Positions 11,963 through 62,985 of a DNA stretch of 64,000 bases are shown one piece after another. Under the pieces are notes generated by a model, which worked only from the letters and a program-made list of their open reading frames with translations, had not been told where the DNA came from and did not search any database. The translations under genes and the position numbers were made by a program. Origin of the DNA: Fasciolopsis buskii (lineage: Eukaryota; Platyhelminthes; Trematoda; Plagiorchiida; Fasciolidae). The stretch spans positions 1 to 64,000 of the forward strand of contig LUCM01005988.1 in NCBI GenBank assembly GCA_008360955.1. The letters run 5' to 3'. Position 1 is the stretch's first letter; every line of letters starts with the position of its first letter.

Positions 11963-11993
<31 letters not shown>

Positions 11994-12004
11994 GTATATA
12001 TATA
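11961..12004. repeat. (TA)n microsatellite
   Basis: An imperfect TA/TACA dinucleotide run. It coincides with the left end of the hammerhead-bearing element that starts at 11997. Confidence 0.95.
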
Positions 12005-12044
12005 GAAGCAGCAAGTAATATCTGGATGCCTAAACAAAATTTGC

Positions 12045-12101
12045 CCGGGAGCACACGACCGATTTCGCGGTTATTGTCGCTCGTCAGGTATGCGTACCCG
12101 G
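12045..12101 (-). ncRNA. Type I hammerhead ribozyme motif (family H2), core intact
   Basis: Read on the minus strand from 12101 to 12045: outer stem I CCGGG; a 3-nt internal loop; inner stem I GCATAC; core CTGACGA (12087-12081); stem II GCG, 8-nt loop, CGC; core GAA; short stem III ATCGGT; cleavage nucleotide C (12057) in a canonical GUC triplet; inner stem I GTGTGC (one G-T wobble); outer stem I CCCGG. All invariant core residues are present and the 10.1-11.1 pair is G-C. Stem III is minimal. The copy at 21.5 kb has the self-complementary ACCGGT there, which suggests that pairing between two RNA copies could form it, as described for dimeric hammerheads of newt and schistosome repeats. Predicted cleavage lies 3' of the base at 12057. 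Confidence 0.75.
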
Positions 12102-12145
12102 TGCGCTCTTGTCCAAACATCCACATACTTGTACACTCCGAATTG

Positions 12146-12266
12146 ATATTTCTCACCAGAATCAAATCTGTAGCATCAGGAGTGTGCGTGGAAGCTCTTC
12201 ATCGAAGAGTCCACAGAAGAACCACAACTGTGATTCGTTGATAATTCTTTGTCAGTTGGGCTGAGC
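12146..12266 (-). repeat. Left arm of a 121-bp inverted repeat
   Basis: The arm pairs with 12324-12444, also 121 nt, with only a few mismatches. A 57-bp spacer containing a TA/CG-rich tract separates them. The arm is the upstream part of the H2 element, so this is a head-to-head duplication of that part. A transcript through both arms would fold into a long hairpin. Confidence 0.9.
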
Positions 12267-12323
12267 TGCTTCTATATATACGTATACATATTCTAGAGCA
12301 TTCTGCCCTCGTTCCTAAGGTTG

Positions 12324-12444
12324 GCTCAGCCCAACTAACAAACAATTATCAACGAATCACAGTTGTGGTTCTTCTGTGGACTCTTCGATGAAGAGCTTCC
12401 ATGCACACTCCTGATGCTACAAATTCGATTCCGGTGAGAAATAT
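12324..12444 (+). repeat. Right arm of the inverted repeat; partial H2 element
   Basis: Reverse complement of 12146-12266. It covers the H2 upstream region but stops before the hammerhead and is fused through a short TA run to the minus-strand SINE that follows. Confidence 0.9.
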
Positions 12445-12622
12445 ATATATCATCGCTAAACTCACCATAAAGAAACCATGGAAGCACTGTACAGCTGTTT
12501 CATCCTTGTTAGGAATCATCAGCAGGGCATATCCACCGCGCCCGAACTGGGACGCGAACCCGGGACGAACGATTCTGAGTCGAGCGCCTTAGCCATTACG
12601 CCACCGGCAGGCTCTGAACAGT
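12445..12622 (-). mobile_element. tRNA-derived SINE with 3' hammerhead (family H1), minus copy
   Basis: On the minus strand, an A box TGGCGTAATGG (12603-12593) and a B box GGTTCGCGTCC (12559-12549) both fit the pol III consensus at tRNA-like spacing. The hammerhead motif follows (12528-12484), then a shared tail with CCATGG and TTATGGTGAG. Five further copies or fragments lie at 12689, 23473, 23786, 45631 and 45800. The tRNA-like part has a CTCAGAA loop where the anticodon loop would be, but arm pairing is imperfect, so it is a retroposon head and not a working tRNA gene. The downstream tail is truncated by the fused H2 arm. Confidence 0.8.
12484..12528 (-). ncRNA. Hammerhead ribozyme motif in the SINE (family H1), minus copy
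   Basis: Minus strand, 5' to 3': stem I GCCCTG, core CTGATGA, stem II TTCCT-AACA-AGGAT, core GAA, stem III ACAGCTGT, cleavage base A (12490), stem I CAGTGC. Stem II pairs well except for a U-U at 10.1/11.1, where active hammerheads normally have a purine-pyrimidine pair. Stem I has one mismatch compared with the 12.8-kb copy. Core residues are all present. Activity is plausible but may be weak. Confidence 0.7.
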
Positions 12623-12688
12623 AGCGAACAGCAACCGTGCAAATCAGTGACGAGTAGGTGCAACATCATGTGATGAAGTTCAACAAAC

Positions 12689-12915
12689 TATTCAGAGCCT
12701 TCCCGGTAGCGTAATGGCTAAGGCGTTCGCCTCAGAATCGTTCGTCCCGGATTCGCGCCCCAGTTCGGGCGCGGTGGATATGCACTGCTGATGATTACTA
12801 ACAAGGATGAAACAGCTGTACAGTGCTTCCATGGTTTCTTTATGGTGAGTTGACCGATGATATCACATGGTGAATTATTTCATGAAAACATTTAATCTCC
12901 TACTACTAAAATGTA
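12689..12915 (+). mobile_element. tRNA-derived SINE with 3' hammerhead (family H1), plus copy
   Basis: A box TAGCGTAATGG at 12707-12717, B box GGATTCGCGCC at 12749-12759 (one base off consensus) and hammerhead motif at 12782-12826. A tail to about 12915 is shared with the 23.8-kb copy, and a TA microsatellite follows. Transcription would be by RNA polymerase III from the internal promoter. It would depend on an external reverse transcriptase for movement; LINEs in this window are candidates only. The arrangement of pol III head plus hammerhead tail matches what is known for the schistosome Sm-alpha family; homology to Sm-alpha itself was not tested. Confidence 0.85.
12782..12826 (+). ncRNA. 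Type I hammerhead ribozyme motif in the SINE (family H1)
   Basis: Stem I GCACTG (12782-12787), core CTGATGA (12788-12794), stem II and loop (12795-12808), core GAA (12809-12811), stem III ACAGCTGT (12812-12819, self-complementary), cleavage base A (12820), stem I CAGTGC (12821-12826, perfect complement of the 5' strand). GGA upstream and TCC downstream could extend stem I beyond an internal loop. Stem II here has two non-Watson-Crick positions (U-U and A-G), so this copy may be less active than its ancestor. Predicted cleavage lies between 12820 and 12821. Confidence 0.75.
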
Positions 12916-12916
12916 T

Positions 12917-12917
12917 C

Positions 12918-12948
<31 letters not shown>

Positions 12949-21589: not shown

Positions 21590-23470
21590 TTTCGCACAGG
21601 AAACTGGTTTGATGTGAAAAGTAAACAGGCAACGGAACACTAATTGATAATTAATTCCTTGCACTGCGACTATAGTCGAATGAAATAAGGCTTTTTATTG
21701 CAAATAAAGCGATTTCCCAAAATTAAATAACTTGTGATTATATGGAATATTCAAGTAATAACCCGTTTCTTGACATAGCACTATATTGTGTACGAGATTG
21801 CGAGAGAAAACCCAAATGGGTGGGAAAAGAGATTAGACGATTGTTCCACAACTCCTCAGTTCTCGGGCAAACAGAAGAGTGAAAGAGAAAGGTATGACAT
21901 GTTGGGATAAAAGACTAATGGTGGATGCCAGAAGCACGAAAACGGGATAGATGGACGAAATTCAGACGTATGGGGATTGACCACGCAAGCTCCGGAGGAC
22001 AAAATCCAAAGTAATGAATTTAGACAACGAAGCAATCAACTGATTACGAGCAAACGAATGCGGACTGAATATGAGCGACCGAACGGAAGGCACTACTATT
22101 ATCCTGATCTGGTACGGAATGAAAAGTGGACGAAGTCCTACCTCACGCGACTTCCGTAATCAGGGCCATAAAGCTGTCGTACCCAATTCATCCTTATGAT
22201 GCTAATTAAAATGTAAATAATACAAACAGCGCAGAGTGATTACAATGAAAGTATAACAGAACGGCGAGGGACGATCAGAACCGAATTTCTTTTCCTAAAT
22301 CCCTTGTTCTGATTGTCGTCCATGTTGCTGAGGGCAAATGGTTAATTTTTTCGCAATGAACTGAACTTGAAGAAGGCTGGAAGGAATATGTTGTAGAGTG
22401 CCAACAGGTAAGTATGACTGATTGGGGACACGTAATCTTGTGCTATTTTATTACGAATAAAACTGAGTTGTGCATCAGAATGAAATATGATATACAGCTC
22501 CGTTTGAACGAGTCACATGCAACGTGATGTTAAACTTGCAGAAAGCCATATGGATATCAACTGTGTAAATGTTTATGCTGGTTGTCATGTTTAAGCGGCT
22601 TTAACATCTTATACTGGCCAAGTTCTACCTTCGATAATCGTTATCCCGATGCATACCGCAACTTGCATTTGTTGAGCTAAAGGTCAAACATATCGAGTGT
22701 AGGCCACAGAGTCACTGATGACTTGTGCAAGAAATGCAAACCATCTACGGCAAGAACGTTTATCTTATTCACAAATGCTGGCACTATAATTCGAACCTCT
22801 CCTCATCTCTCACACACACTGTCTCTAAATATATATACACATATATATATAGATACATATATATAAGATTCTTACCTGGTAAAAGTTTCAATACCCTTCC
22901 TCCGTCGATAGCATATCGTTGTCTCAGCTCGTATAGTCAAAAGAGACGGGGTTGTTACCGAAGCTTCAACGACTGTGAATGGTTAACCTATTACAACTCT
23001 CCATGCCTTGCAGAAGTTTCTTTTATAATCCAGTCTACTACGATCTATGCGATTTATACTGCATATCGTTAGTGTTATTCCTTAAAACGATGCTATCAAA
23101 AACAGCGATGTTCTCCACTCTTTTGTTTCCAGTAGTTTACAGGAATTTGATCGTGCTGTGAGATGCGCAAACGGTTCCTTGAGAAACACTTGAAAATTGT
23201 CACTTCTTTGTGCTCACTCGATGGCTATTCATATAATGGGAATGATTATTTTGTTAGTACTTTGTTCATATCCATTACCACGTATGATGACTCGGACCAC
23301 AGTACCCGAAATCTGATACATTTCCAACCATTCGAGCATAGTCGAAAACTTGGGATAGCCGTGAAAACAGTTAACAATTTTCGGTCTGTCTTTTTTTTAA
23401 CCCGAAGTGTTTCTTTGCCTTGACGTTCCCTTGAGTGAAATAACTCGAGATGTGATATCAGCACTCAACT
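21590..23470. other. No supported gene; one strong splice-donor-like site and a TA microsatellite
   Basis: An ideal 5' splice-site sequence CAG-GTAAGT occurs at 22405-22413, preceded by a short open stretch (22363-22407) reading ELEEGWKEYVVECQQ; no matching acceptor or neighbouring exon was found. 22828-22865 is an imperfect TA/TACA repeat. The 115-codon frame at 22725-23072 runs through that repeat and is not considered coding. Confidence 0.35.
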
Positions 23471-23472
23471 TG

Positions 23473-23760
23473 CCATTAAGACACCGTGGAAGAATTGTCA
23501 AGCTGTTTCATCCTATTGCGAATGATATAATATTAACAACATTACAATCAAATTGTAAAACTTGTCTTGAGAAAGACTACCCACGGTAGTCGAAACATTT
23601 AACAACAGCGCTGTGGTATTAACATTAAATCATTTACAACAAAAACCAGCACAGCGCATCGGTTTTTCCATACACTTCCCACGTCATTTGGTCTTGCTGT
23701 TTTATGCTAGTTAAGAATTATCAGTAAGACATATCCATATTGCCTGATTGGTGAGCCTTC
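23473..23760 (-). mobile_element. H1 SINE, minus copy, interrupted and truncated
   Basis: 23473-23527 matches the tail and hammerhead 3' half of the SINE (AGCTGTTTCATCC is clear). Similarity then stops and resumes at about 23711-23760 (ATTATCAG, CATATCCAT) with the rest. About 180 bp of foreign sequence lies between, flanked by GAATGAT and GAATTAT, which may be a degenerate target duplication. The tRNA head is deleted and the hammerhead core is split, so the ribozyme is dead. Confidence 0.65.
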
Positions 23761-23785
23761 ATGTGGTGAAGTTCAGCAAAAAGTG

Positions 23786-23995
23786 AAGAGCCTTCCCGGT
23801 AGTGTGATGGTTAGGACGTTCGACTTACCATTGTTCGTCGCGGTTGTTCGCGTCCCAGTTCGGGACTCAGTGGATATGCACTGCTGATGATTCCTAACAG
23901 CGGTACAGTGTTTTCATGGTTTCTTAATGCTGAGATGGGCGTTCATATTACAAGATGAACTGTTTCCTGAACCATATAATCTCTGACTGCTAACT
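23786..23995 (+). mobile_element. H1 SINE, plus copy, ribozyme deleted
   Basis: A box TAGTGTGATGG at 23800-23810, a degenerate B box near 23843-23855, hammerhead 5' stem I GCACTG and core CTGATGA (23884-23890), then a deletion that removes the 3' half of stem II and the GAAA core before TACAGTG. The tail aligns with 12840-12912. The pol III head is largely retained, but the ribozyme cannot fold. Confidence 0.8.
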
Positions 23996-39589: not shown

Positions 39590-40760
39590 TTGACGAATTC
39601 GCCTTTATTCAGCTTTGTCATAGACCAGGCGATGGAAGATGCCTGAGGAGGTTCCCAAGATGTAACGATCATACCGAGAAATGGAGAAAAGCTGTATCAC
39701 CTAGATAAAGCAGATGATATCGCATGCCACTTCTAGTATGCGGACGATGCACAACATGCACTAGACAAACTCTCGAGGTCTGTTGCGCCGTTTGGCATGT
39801 GCTTCGCACCTCCAAAGTATAAAGTGCTGTTGCAAGACCGGACGACAGTAGCCCCGAACTTGAAACCGGAGGTAGGGGAACTAACGATTGTGGAACGTTT
39901 CACTTAACTTGGTAGCTGTGGGTCGAACGATGGTAGCTCGACAGTAGAAGTAAGCAGGCACATATCCAAGGCTCGAGCTGCATGCGTTGGACTGAAGCGC
40001 TTGTAGCGTCGGCCTGATATTTCACTGAAGTTGAAAGGCCATGTGTATTGTGCCGCAATGCGCTCAGTTCTGCTGTACGGTTGCGAGACATGGAGCGTGC
40101 GTGTCGAAGGTGTTCGTCGCTTGGAGATTTTCGATCACCGATATCTACGTAGTAACGCCAGAATTCGATGGAGTGACCGGATGAGTAATGTAGAGGTTAG
40201 GAATCTAGTACTACGTGCCGGTTTTGAGATTATCTTATCTCAGTGTATGCAAATTAGTAGACTACGCTGGTTGGGTCATGTGTTGCGCATGGTGAACACT
40301 GGTCTATCACACCACGCCCCAATTTGAGGTTCCTTTCACAGAGTGGAAAAAATCATTTGTAGGTCAGCAGATGACGTGGTAATGTGGAGCGGGAAAATAA
40401 ACAACGAACTTAGATAAAGTAGGTGTTTTACGTCTTCGTGTTTGGGATCCGAAGAACAAGTCAACTGGCTGGCTGGAGACACTTAAGGATATGGCAGTGA
40501 ACCGTGAACAGTGGGGATCGTGTTGTCATTTTCCATCGAATCAGAATGATTGCGAGTTGCTTTTTACAGTTAGATTGTGTTTCGTGTGTTGGCTACTGCA
40601 TCACCGTTATCTTTTCCCGCTTTGTTTTCGTTTAAAATTTCTATCGCATCCAAAAGTGACCACAGAGTTACTCATATTAATGCTAATATTTTTTTGACAG
40701 AAGGTCTTCTGTCGAATCACGACGCGGATTATTGCCAGTGTTTCGTGCACCACTGTCCGG
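39590..40760 (+). pseudogene. 3' third of an RTE-type LINE: RT palm, thumb, C-terminal domain and 3' UTR
   Basis: Translating the plus strand with a few stops removed gives an RTE-clade pol. The YADD catalytic box lies at 39737-39748, followed by ALDKLSRSVAPFGMCFAPPK and KVLLQDRTT. After further motifs (RFT-LGSCGSNDG, ISKARAA) an intact 98-codon frame at 40031-40327 contains CAAMRSVLLYGCETW and LRWLGHVLRM, the hallmark of the RTE C-terminal domain. A last segment near 40430-40545 reads WLETLKDMAVNREQWGSCC. The 3' UTR to about 40760 is shared with the copies at 51.5-51.7 kb (minus) and 53.77-54.0 kb. Stops near 39732 and 39906 and frameshifts after 40327 show it is dead. The endonuclease half is absent. 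Confidence 0.9.
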
Positions 40761-43700: not shown

Positions 43701-45625
43701 CCACCGATATCCGTCTCGCTTGATATCTACATGCTTGAGACCAGTAGTGGAAACGCAGCGGGCTTTGATTCCCCCCTGCCCATATGAGAGGGCGATGACA
43801 GCACCCCACCACCACCCCCATCGTGGTAGGAACACGACACCTCTGTCCTGCGGCGAACCGTCTGGGGCGATCTTCAACCCGGGACTGACACAGACAAGAT
43901 GCGTCGAGAAACGGCGGCCACACGCAATATGTCCTTCGTGTGTATGTCCTCTCTGTTATGTCGTCCTTCAATAGGCCAATCAAGTTGCAGCTTCGTCACT
44001 CCGTTACCTAGGCCAGTTGTTGACTTTTTGACCAATCGGTGTTGGCTAACCGCAATGTCCAACCAAATGGGTACGAGAAGATCGATAGTATGGCCACGTG
44101 CTGTTGCCGTTGCCAGATTTGGCAGTCGAGCAAGCTTACCCAGGATCTGTGTTGAGGTGAGTTAGTCTGTGGTTGTTCCTGCTGTTCTTATCAGATTTGC
44201 CATTGCGATTAGACAGTTATTTGATCTTAATGTGTTGGCCACCTACCTGACAAAACTTCCATGAACGTGATTGTAACTAATCCCTGTCTGTTTCCCATCC
44301 CTGCATTTTCCATTACTTACTGTACCGAATGTTTTCTAGTGTGTTTGTTAATACAATGATTGTTTGAGTCAATTTCACCCTTTAGTGAGAGGTATCGCAT
44401 AATCATTATTTCGCATTTTGCTCGTTCGTGATGCGATGCTCGTACCATGATCCGTAGGACTATCACTGATGTTGCTCTAATATGGTTATTCTGTTCGGTT
44501 GTCCAATGTACTGGGAGCCCTGTTCAACTAAGTGCTTCTCCAAAATCCGATTCACACGCTTCTGTATTTTCGTTCTAATTTAGTACTAGTATATTAGGTT
44601 TTTACGGCTGTGGGTTTTTAAGTCAACCTGTAACTCCATTTCCGGCAAAAATGTCCCGTTCCCGACTGTTCACCTGACTAATTGGCTAGAAGTCGAAGGT
44701 CGAAAACTCCCTGTGGTTGGCCTTCACGGTTTATTATTTCAGCTCCGGTAAGTGATGTCTGAATCAAGCATACTTGATGTGTGTTGGGGAACAGGATTTT
44801 AAAGCAATGTAAAGTACCCAAACAACGAAAATCTATGGGTTTGCCGGAAAAGCTTTACCTCTTTGGTGTGTAGTTTCAGATGTCTGGCGCGGGGTTGAGA
44901 TGGTAGCGGTCGCATACGGGAGGGGTGTATTCGTCATCGGTTTCAAATCATTTATTTTTCTGATGTCAATGGGGTTGTTCACGAATGTTCAGTTCCTTTA
45001 AAATCGGAGATTGCTCTGCAATTGCTGTGCCACTTAATTCGTTCTGAAGTACCGTTTGTCTGCGATTTTGCAATTTTTTATGATTTACCCGTCACATGAG
45101 TGTGGCAGAAAGACAAACTCGAGGGGAGGGAGGACTTCGAACTTTGGCCGTGGAACTTGAAGTAGCATAGAACCACATAAGATCCCCAAATGTCCTATGG
45201 TTACAAATACGGCAATAGCAACTTTGCATTTCCTACCGAGTGACAGACGGTCGTTCGTCATGAATCGCGTCTTCGTGCAAGTAGCGGGTTGCTTCCTGTT
45301 CGACAAGCTGGCGTCGTTCGTGTCCTCATCTTACCGACAGTCATTGTTGTAACACAGAACAAGCTAAAAATCCGTGATCCCCGAACAGTTAATGGGGTCG
45401 AATTTAGATGCAATGAGCCTATGGGTTTTATGCGGTTAGACAATCGTGGGTCCTTTAAGGTGGACTGTCTAAAGCAACTTAGCAGTGAACAGTATTCAGT
45501 TTTGTCGAACAACGCGCCCTTTAATTTTTCCCATGGGAAAGCAGCTGCTTCCGTGGAGCCTTTGGACTGGAATCTCATCAGTAATAGTGGATCTACTATA
45601 ATTTTCAAGGGATTCAACATCAACA
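40765..45625. other. No supported gene; CCAAT-rich block and tRNA-like remnant
   Basis: 43780-44060 is relatively GC-rich, with overlapping open frames on both strands (up to 102 codons) and two CCAAT boxes (near 43975 and 44032), more like an LTR or 5' UTR than a gene. 44886-44950 has tRNA-like features with a GGTTTCAAATC B box (44939-44949). 45258-45638 has open frames of 120-126 codons on both strands; the plus-strand one ends inside a SINE fragment, so I do not call it. Confidence 0.35.
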
Positions 45626-45630
45626 CCCAG

Positions 45631-45757
45631 CTCACCATTAAAAAACTGTGATTGCAGGTGTTTCACCCAGTTTGTTACGAATCGTCAACAGTGCATATCC
45701 ATCGTGCCCGAACAAGTTTGTCCGTGGCCTTACCTATTAAGCCACTGTAATAGGTTC
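45631..45757 (-). mobile_element. H1 SINE, minus copy, degenerate
   Basis: It aligns with the reverse complement of the SINE: CTCACCAT tail, TGTTTCACCC, CGTCAACAGTGCATATCC and CGTGCCCGAAC. The core reads TTGACGA in place of CTGATGA, so the ribozyme is mutated. The B-box region is shortened. An A-box remnant (CTATTAAGCCACTG) lies near 45727-45740. Confidence 0.7.
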
Positions 45758-45799
45758 TCAATGGTTTATCGATTATCAACGCGGTCGTTCATTCGGAGG

Positions 45800-45930
45800 T
45801 CGCCTCCAAACACAGACGATTTGGATATTCCCCGCTGATGGTTCCCGACGGGGATAAAACAGCTGTACGATGCTTCCATGGTTTCCTACCGGTGGGTTTG
45901 TCATTGGTGCAGCATGATGAAGCCTTTGCG
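45800..45930 (+). mobile_element. H1 SINE, plus copy, tRNA head missing
   Basis: It aligns from GGATAT through the hammerhead region to the tail (CAGCTGTACGATGCTTCC, then CCATGGTTTCC). The core is CTGATGG and AAAAC, so two core positions are changed. Stem II CCC-GAC-GGG is well paired. The ribozyme is probably inactive. Confidence 0.7.
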
Positions 45931-62700: not shown

Positions 62701-62985
62701 CGTTCATCCAGAGCAAGGAAGGTGAAGGCCGGGACACGCTTCTAGTGAATGTGACCGGTGGTGCTCCAACAACATGCACCGTGGGGTTTAGACCGTAAGT
62801 GTATCGGGTTTCATTCATGCTGTCGTCATCCGCTTCCTAATTCGGCACCCTGTGATCGACGGAGGCCCTCTTGTTGAAGTGCTAACTTCGGCGGCGCGCA
62901 CACGGAAATCGGAGCGATATGCGGATTACCATGGTCATTGGGCAAACATGACACGTAGTATCGTGGTGCATTCCATATTCTGACC
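59761..62985. other. No supported gene
   Basis: A TA run lies at 61638-61651. The overlapping frames at 61996-62420 (92 and 102 codons, plus) show no recognised domain. Confidence 0.4.

Follow-up and report, generated by a model that had tools for sequence, protein, structure and literature searches.

A tandem fluke repeat with a hammerhead-like motif, likely inserted by a Penelope-like enzyme

Introduction

What kind of mobile sequence joins a tRNA-like stretch to a hammerhead-like motif in a fluke genome, and which enzyme inserts it? The question is raised by a 64,000-nt stretch of Fasciolopsis buskii DNA (contig LUCM01005988.1, positions 1 to 64,000; hereafter the window), in which a preliminary description had placed a tRNA-derived SINE with a hammerhead ribozyme as its 3′ part at 12,689–12,915. 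Hammerhead repeats of flukes (Sm-alpha and Sj-alpha), animal retrozymes, and the combination of a tRNA-like stretch with a hammerhead in Sm-alpha are already known. As the machinery that moves animal retrozymes, Penelope elements have so far only been suspected. The authors who described the retrozymes regarded Penelope as a strong candidate, since the two coexist, share type I hammerheads and are both arranged in tandem (PMC7229834); in the accessible part of that paper the proposal is based on these three general likenesses and not on insertion anatomy. Retrozyme repeats are further described, in the accessible text of PMC7761336, as having no conserved motif that reveals the partner. Here we analyze the locus and its relatives across the genome. 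With a probability of about 0.64, we consider the window feature to be one insertion of a ~395-nt repeat, produced in trans by a Penelope-like reverse transcriptase from multimeric or circular RNA.

Results

A hammerhead-like motif and a tRNA-like stretch in the window

The window holds two copies of the motif on opposite strands, and box-like motifs accompany the plus copy.

12,782–12,826, plus strand: family-1 hammerhead-like motif (Hammerhead_HH9, 19.7 bits, cut-off 52, E 0.086)
12,484–12,528, minus strand: hammerhead-like motif of the inverted arm, with one stem I mismatch (Hammerhead_1, 24.8 bits, cut-off 34, E 0.0028)
12,707–12,717, plus strand: A-box-like TAGCGTAATGG, within the tRNA-like stretch (unit 1–90)
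12,749–12,759, plus strand: B-box-like GGATTCGCGCC

In the plus copy, a CTGATGA core (12,788–12,794) and GAA (12,809–12,811) are followed by the self-complementary stem III ACAGCTGT (12,812–12,819), which lies between GAA and the predicted cut after 12,820 (GUA). Stem I is fully paired, with 12,782–12,787 matching 12,821–12,826 in 6/6 pairs. The motif read in the preliminary description is thus real, and its self-complementary stem III, pol III-like boxes and likeness to Sm-alpha all stand. The Rfam comparison bore out that description only in part: at gathering thresholds there was no match across the window, and a permissive scan of 1.5 kb, from which the above scores are taken, placed the hammerhead clan among the best matches, yet under the curated cut-offs. 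Both family-1 copies of the window failed a strict hammerhead descriptor, owing to mismatches in stem II (plus copy) and in stem I (minus copy); its single match in the window was the neighboring motif of a second family (12,087, minus strand), and 60 dinucleotide shuffles gave none.

The A-box and B-box calls for TAGCGTAATGG and GGATTCGCGCC follow the box consensus as generally given. The Rfam tRNA model scored 18.2 bits on the inverted window copy and at best 25.3 bits in L012, the sole tRNA match in 20 loci scanned (cut-off 29), and ARAGORN found no tRNA in the window or in the family-1 consensus. At one locus (L044, 574–1000), a GTTCGC-type simple repeat next to the B-box-like motif extends the unit, and the heads are 425 nt apart.

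The motif lies inside a tandem unit with two preferred end sites

We searched the genome (703,196,239 bases, 6974 contigs) with two queries, which gave 887 and 3753 family-1 candidates at first look, the best 40 being scored for each. The first set comprises 38 loci fetched from the best-scored 40 of the 887 candidates, reduced to 37 by dropping the duplicate L037. This locus and L036 (contig C5626) have their flanks in common and lie ~9 kb from each other in opposite orientation, representing either a large inverted duplication or an assembly error. The recurrence of the family in the genome led us to reject a chance origin of the motif.

The repeat unit is ~395 nt long (392–400) and occurs in tandem: three heads are spaced 395 and 400 nt apart in L010, L092 contains about four turns, and direct pieces of at least 395 nt are present in 12/37 loci. 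We numbered the unit with the head as 1, which puts the predicted cut after 132. The copies are circular permutations of this unit, and the head starts just 2/41 direct pieces, both at arm junctions; a third start at unit 1–2 continues the L010 tandem. The other direct pieces start at scattered points, so that the head-first order of the preliminary description was not confirmed, and a SINE anchored at its head was rejected on these start points. The tRNA-like stretch and the hammerhead-like motif both sit inside the tandem unit instead of forming the two parts of a SINE, and the insertion runs from 12,447 to 12,918 in place of the boundaries first proposed.

The ends of the pieces were tallied for pieces of >80% identity (67 ends, window regions included, L037 dropped). 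Site A (unit 190–210, median 200), 68 nt past the predicted cut, accounts for 31/67 ends, and site B (unit 211–240, median 226), 94 nt past it, for 24/67, in a sample whose query (unit 1–172) leaves aside starts from unit 3 to about 165, cut-site stops included. The two sites are 26 nt apart, and the remaining 12 ends lie outside both. The fetched copies run unbroken across the predicted cut; hence they did not derive from a linear, singly cut unit, and a template in the form of a circle, multimer or uncut transcript is compatible. Turn-to-turn identity failed to separate a circular from a multimeric template. The unit has no TTTT, as is also the case in 578/1000 shuffles. Older pieces of the family are scattered elsewhere in the window.

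23,436–23,514, minus strand, and 23,759–23,993, plus strand (ribozyme core partly deleted): old family-1 pieces, 81% and 77% identical to the unit
45,619–45,713, minus strand, and 45,785–45,921, plus strand: old family-1 pieces, 73% and 67% identical

Conservation of the ribozyme motif

We compared the motif in 54 copies with >85% identity to the reference unit (L037 dropped). The core and stem I are both intact in 28/54 copies, and ACAGCTGT is retained in 52/54. A U·U at 10.1/11.1, a pair that carries weight for hammerhead activity, is present in 53/54. The preliminary description had cited this U·U and a weakened stem II as reasons to question the activity of the window copy; the U·U is indeed there, as a family trait and not as decay, and it is the extra A·G mismatch in stem II that is nearly copy-specific (the window plus copy and L009 only, among 62 aligned rows). 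Among 20 of the 38 fetched loci scanned with Rfam (E≤1), 14 gave 18 hammerhead matches and six gave none; all scores were below cut-off, the best being 30.8 bits for HH9 and, against a gathering threshold of 34, 26.7 for Hammerhead_1.

No other part of the unit is as uniform as the motif (0.973 versus 0.935–0.953 elsewhere), in a sample gathered with a query that covered it. Across 39 HHRs, 91.9% of the cells pair, and changes on both sides occur in 4/15 pairs against a shuffle mean of 1.2 (7/500 shuffles reach 4), a value that 3/6 slid controls equal or exceed. In diverged family-1 copies, the changes are scattered, and the minimum-energy fold of the consensus differs from a hammerhead. Judged from sequence, the signs of activity of the family-1 ribozyme point both ways: the U·U, the core and stem I intact together in only 28/54, the low scores and the other fold count against it, and the uniform motif and the kept ACAGCTGT count for it. 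An 8-bp stem III could form between two motifs of the same RNA, as has been reported for newt and Penelope motifs (PMC6155905, PMC7761336).

A second hammerhead family adjoins the insertion

Next to family 1, the window contains a second family with a 317-bp unit, which appears to be the better ribozyme candidate.

11,984–12,266, minus strand: family-2 inverted arm, 93% identical to the unit
12,266–12,444, plus strand: family-2 direct arm, 92% identical; family 1 sits at its AT-rich end
12,034–12,105, minus strand: family-2 hammerhead motif (HH9, 29.3 bits, cut-off 52, E 7e-05), the strict descriptor match

This motif has the best hammerhead score of the window in the permissive scan, with G-C at 10.1/11.1, a GUC cut site and, in intact units, ACCGGU. 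Our family-2 sample was the best 40 of 1241 first-look candidates. All four complete units of a perfect tandem (L052, 1226–2494) are identical. Copies of this family stop near unit 255 or within a TA-rich stretch that lies roughly 50–70 nt downstream of the predicted cut, and inverted arms accompany some of them (window/L049, L059, L067, L073); in L050, apparently two insertions meet within one TA run. The sequence TACTACT is common to both families and was rejected as a shared signal, as its distances from the cut differ. Two family-2 pieces with the same limits lie 1126 nt apart on the minus strand of L074 (4186–4549 and 5312–5675) with other sequence between them, reflecting capture or local duplication. 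In ten 10-kb stretches around family-2 copies, we recognized no Penelope ORF, with Pfam applied to two ORFs of at least 130 aa; these were a Pao peptidase and a weak LINE reverse transcriptase. A Pao-type retrotransposon peptidase ORF is located near the family-2 tandem of L069 (7745–8797, plus strand).

Many family-1 insertions have two arms, mostly with opposite end sites where both are classed

The pair at 12,447–12,918 is one two-armed family-1 insertion.

12,447–12,622, minus strand: family-1 inverted arm, from unit 175 back through 1 to 394 (BLAST on the 395-nt unit, 94%)
12,622–12,918, plus strand: family-1 direct arm, from unit 326 through 395/1 to 230, overlapping the inverted arm by 1 nt

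The inverted repeat covers 161 nt (12,447–12,607) and is 94% complementary to the plus copy. The (TA)n target of the insertion masks any duplication, and the inverted end at unit 175 belongs to neither site class.

Such an inverted arm, adjoining directly upstream, is found in 21/37 loci and in two window regions (24 junctions), and its outer end is at A or B in 15/24. The arms overlap by 2–4 nt at 13/24 junctions. Target duplications span 8–14 nt; those of at least 9 nt occur in 15/37 loci, compared with 3.1% of 1332 mismatched pairs. In 11/15 loci the duplication is located past the direct arm, and inverted unit sequence falls within the enclosed interval in 10 of them, all except L034, where no inverted arm was detected inside the duplication. 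The duplication lies at the direct arm in L015, L020 and L025 and between the arms in L016.

A second set of 10 places, seven of them picked for a listed inverted match, gave four insertions with both ends classed (L079, L081, L089, L092) and two with one end unclassed (L093, L094); L090 and L091 are cut by the stretch, and L085 and L086 have no readable inverted arm. Duplications enclosing both arms are again seen in L079, L089, L092 and L094. With classes drawn after the first set had been seen, the outer ends are opposite, one A and one B, in 16/18 classed insertions (12/14 in the first set, 4/4 in the second; Fisher p 0.008). The two agreeing cases are L027 (AA) and L038 (BB). One outer end is unclassed at 10/24 first-set junctions, and some are clearly elsewhere (unit 26, 102, 175). 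The two arms of an insertion are generally no more alike than random copies and stand out in L013, L021, L029 and L040 only; one template for both arms therefore fails as a general rule.

The insertion anatomy matches that of Penelope elements

Penelope insertions are reported to consist of partial tandem pLTRs with an adjacent inverted pLTR inside one 8–10-bp duplication, with an optional 31-bp tail that ends one inverted pLTR, and pLTRs have been reported to carry a host gene in trans (PMC3846280). Family 1 has the same anatomy: a partial tandem, an inverted arm, one duplication round both and a one-sided tail. Because its tandem and back-to-back copies match this reported pattern, family 1 is likely moved by a Penelope enzyme; the analysis suggests a retrozyme-like repeat, for which cleavage is predicted and RNA circles may form.

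The purified Penelope enzyme of the anole cut and extended both strands, starting at two adjacent internal positions, which explain the 30–40-bp tail; the main start is 111–118 nt into the ORF, and the ribozyme cut is at 26 (PMC11167929). By subtraction of these figures, the start-to-cut distance is roughly 85–92 nt, against 68 and 94 nt in family 1. The anole ribozyme works only with protein and is dispensable for insertion in vitro (PMC11167929).

A GIY-YIG search of the genome gave two weak fragments (L047, 1501–1623; L048, 1501–1611), which we read from their sequence as Penelope type; one database relative is 52% identical over 86%. Family-2-like pieces (71–72%) lie about 0.5 kb downstream of the L047 fragment and may be an independent insertion. 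On viral contigs, there were no pattern matches and no relative of the Penelope fragment. The window itself contains a LINE-type reverse transcriptase fragment (40,007–40,324, plus strand) with 51 relatives at E≤0.001, the named ones being from flukes (Schistosoma species, Dicrocoelium, Trichobilharzia) at 52–58% identity, the best named at 58%. A U6 snRNA-like sequence at 62,879–62,982 (plus strand; 31.2 bits, cut-off 44) is probably a pseudogene.

From these observations, the following route can be proposed. Tandem copies would give rise to RNA, perhaps through pol III acting on the internal boxes. Hammerheads that pair as dimers through ACAGCUGU, or that are assisted by protein, would cleave this RNA, which might then be closed into circles. 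A Penelope enzyme would open an AT-rich target, where each strand would prime at an internal RNA site, one at A and one at B. Synthesis of both cDNAs would proceed back across the ribozyme, in some cases for more than one turn, and the two would be joined via a few nucleotides of microhomology.

Discussion

Family 1 resembles metazoan non-LTR retrozymes in its non-coding tandem unit within 150–450 bp with a type I hammerhead, its target duplications of >4 bp (at least 9 nt in 15/37 loci) and its G+C content below 50% (46.9% in the consensus); it differs in having a tRNA-like stretch and a weak 10.1/11.1 pair, and its inverted arms and one-sided tail are without counterpart in the accessible retrozyme descriptions (PMC7229834, PMC7761336). 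With Sm-alpha and Sj-alpha, it shares the fluke host, the tRNA-like stretch with a type I hammerhead and a high copy number. Compared by description, its unit of ~395 nt (W36.2_W001 of the Sm-alpha family has 335 bp) has the head inside and not at the 5′ end, and whereas Sm-alpha is described as tRNA-Gln-derived with a fast, proven ribozyme, the family-1 ribozyme is predicted (PMC2770079, PMC8490949, PMC6155905). The core, the three stems and the order of parts are those of Rfam Hammerhead_1 (RF00163) and Hammerhead_HH9 (RF02275), although family 1 scores below the curated cut-offs of both. The partial tandem, the inverted arm, the 8–14-nt duplication, the one-sided tail of ~30 bp and the hammerhead upstream of internal starts are Penelope features (PMC3846280, PMC11167929), yet a 392–400-nt unit is too short for an RT/GIY-YIG ORF; family-1 insertions thus resemble those of Penelope, yet the repeat is not a Penelope element.

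Several observations weigh against the Penelope explanation. The partner is seen as two weak GIY-YIG fragments only, and the ribozyme shows the U·U in nearly all copies, an intact core and stem I in about half, and Rfam scores below cut-off. Ten of 24 junctions have an unclassed end, L027 and L038 have matching ends, and the classes were set after the first set. The two arms of an insertion are generally no more alike than random copies, the turns do not tell a circle from a multimer, and the query spans the cut site and thus selects against copies that stop there. L016 has its duplication between the arms, and L034 lacks an enclosed inverted arm.

Could a conventional Sm-alpha-type SINE with a tRNA head, mobilized by a LINE, account for the same structures, with the inverted pieces arising by twin priming or as neighboring insertions? 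The A- and B-box-like motifs at normal spacing, the 25.3-bit tRNA score of L012 (cut-off 29), the LINE fragments in the genome, the four of 15 loci with the duplication directly at the direct arm, and the description of schistosome Sm-alpha as a SINE that derives from tRNA-Gln and carries a hammerhead (PMC2770079) are all in its favor. We consider it unlikely, however, in view of the 2/41 direct pieces that start at the head, the extension of pieces up to more than one unit upstream of it, and the 10 loci in which duplications enclose both arms. In LINE twin priming, the inverted segment derives from a more 5′ portion of the RNA, whereas the inverted arms here mostly start at end sites of the element itself (A or B in 15/24).

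We give slightly less credence still to a retrozyme or satellite spread through circles by another reverse transcriptase, such as an RTE LINE, or by tandem expansion of DNA, with inverted arms made by repair. The identical family-2 units of L052 could reflect unequal exchange, LINE fragments are present, and no Penelope ORF was recognized in the ten 10-kb stretches around family-2 copies with Pfam on two ORFs; on the other side stand single dispersed insertions with target duplications and a pair of fixed start sites, a different one being used on each side. It is very improbable that the two-armed structures stem from misassembly or chance proximity: L036 and L037 duplicate each other on one contig with the same flanks, N runs adjoin L032 and L086, and L016 and the family-2 pair L050 resemble separate insertions, but the structures recur at many loci across separate contigs, where the junctions differ and locus-specific duplications surround both arms.

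Insertion by a Penelope-like enzyme thus remains our preferred reading. Two points are new: a fluke family whose tandem unit contains both a tRNA-like stretch and a hammerhead-like motif, and an insertion anatomy with two arms, two sites and one tail, which links this family to Penelope machinery; in searches of open-licence PMC papers, we found no earlier report of such anatomy for retrozymes. A wider proposal, which we hold tentatively and at somewhat less than even odds, is that animal retrozymes, including “ribozyme SINEs” of the Sm-alpha type, parasitize Penelope. The signal read would be a hammerhead followed by paired internal starts, both strands would be used at once, with cDNAs from A and B, and the one-sided tail would be the footprint of the double start. 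Insertion anatomy would supply the mark of the partner that retrozyme repeats otherwise lack, and the question is testable with the existing purified Penelope enzyme.
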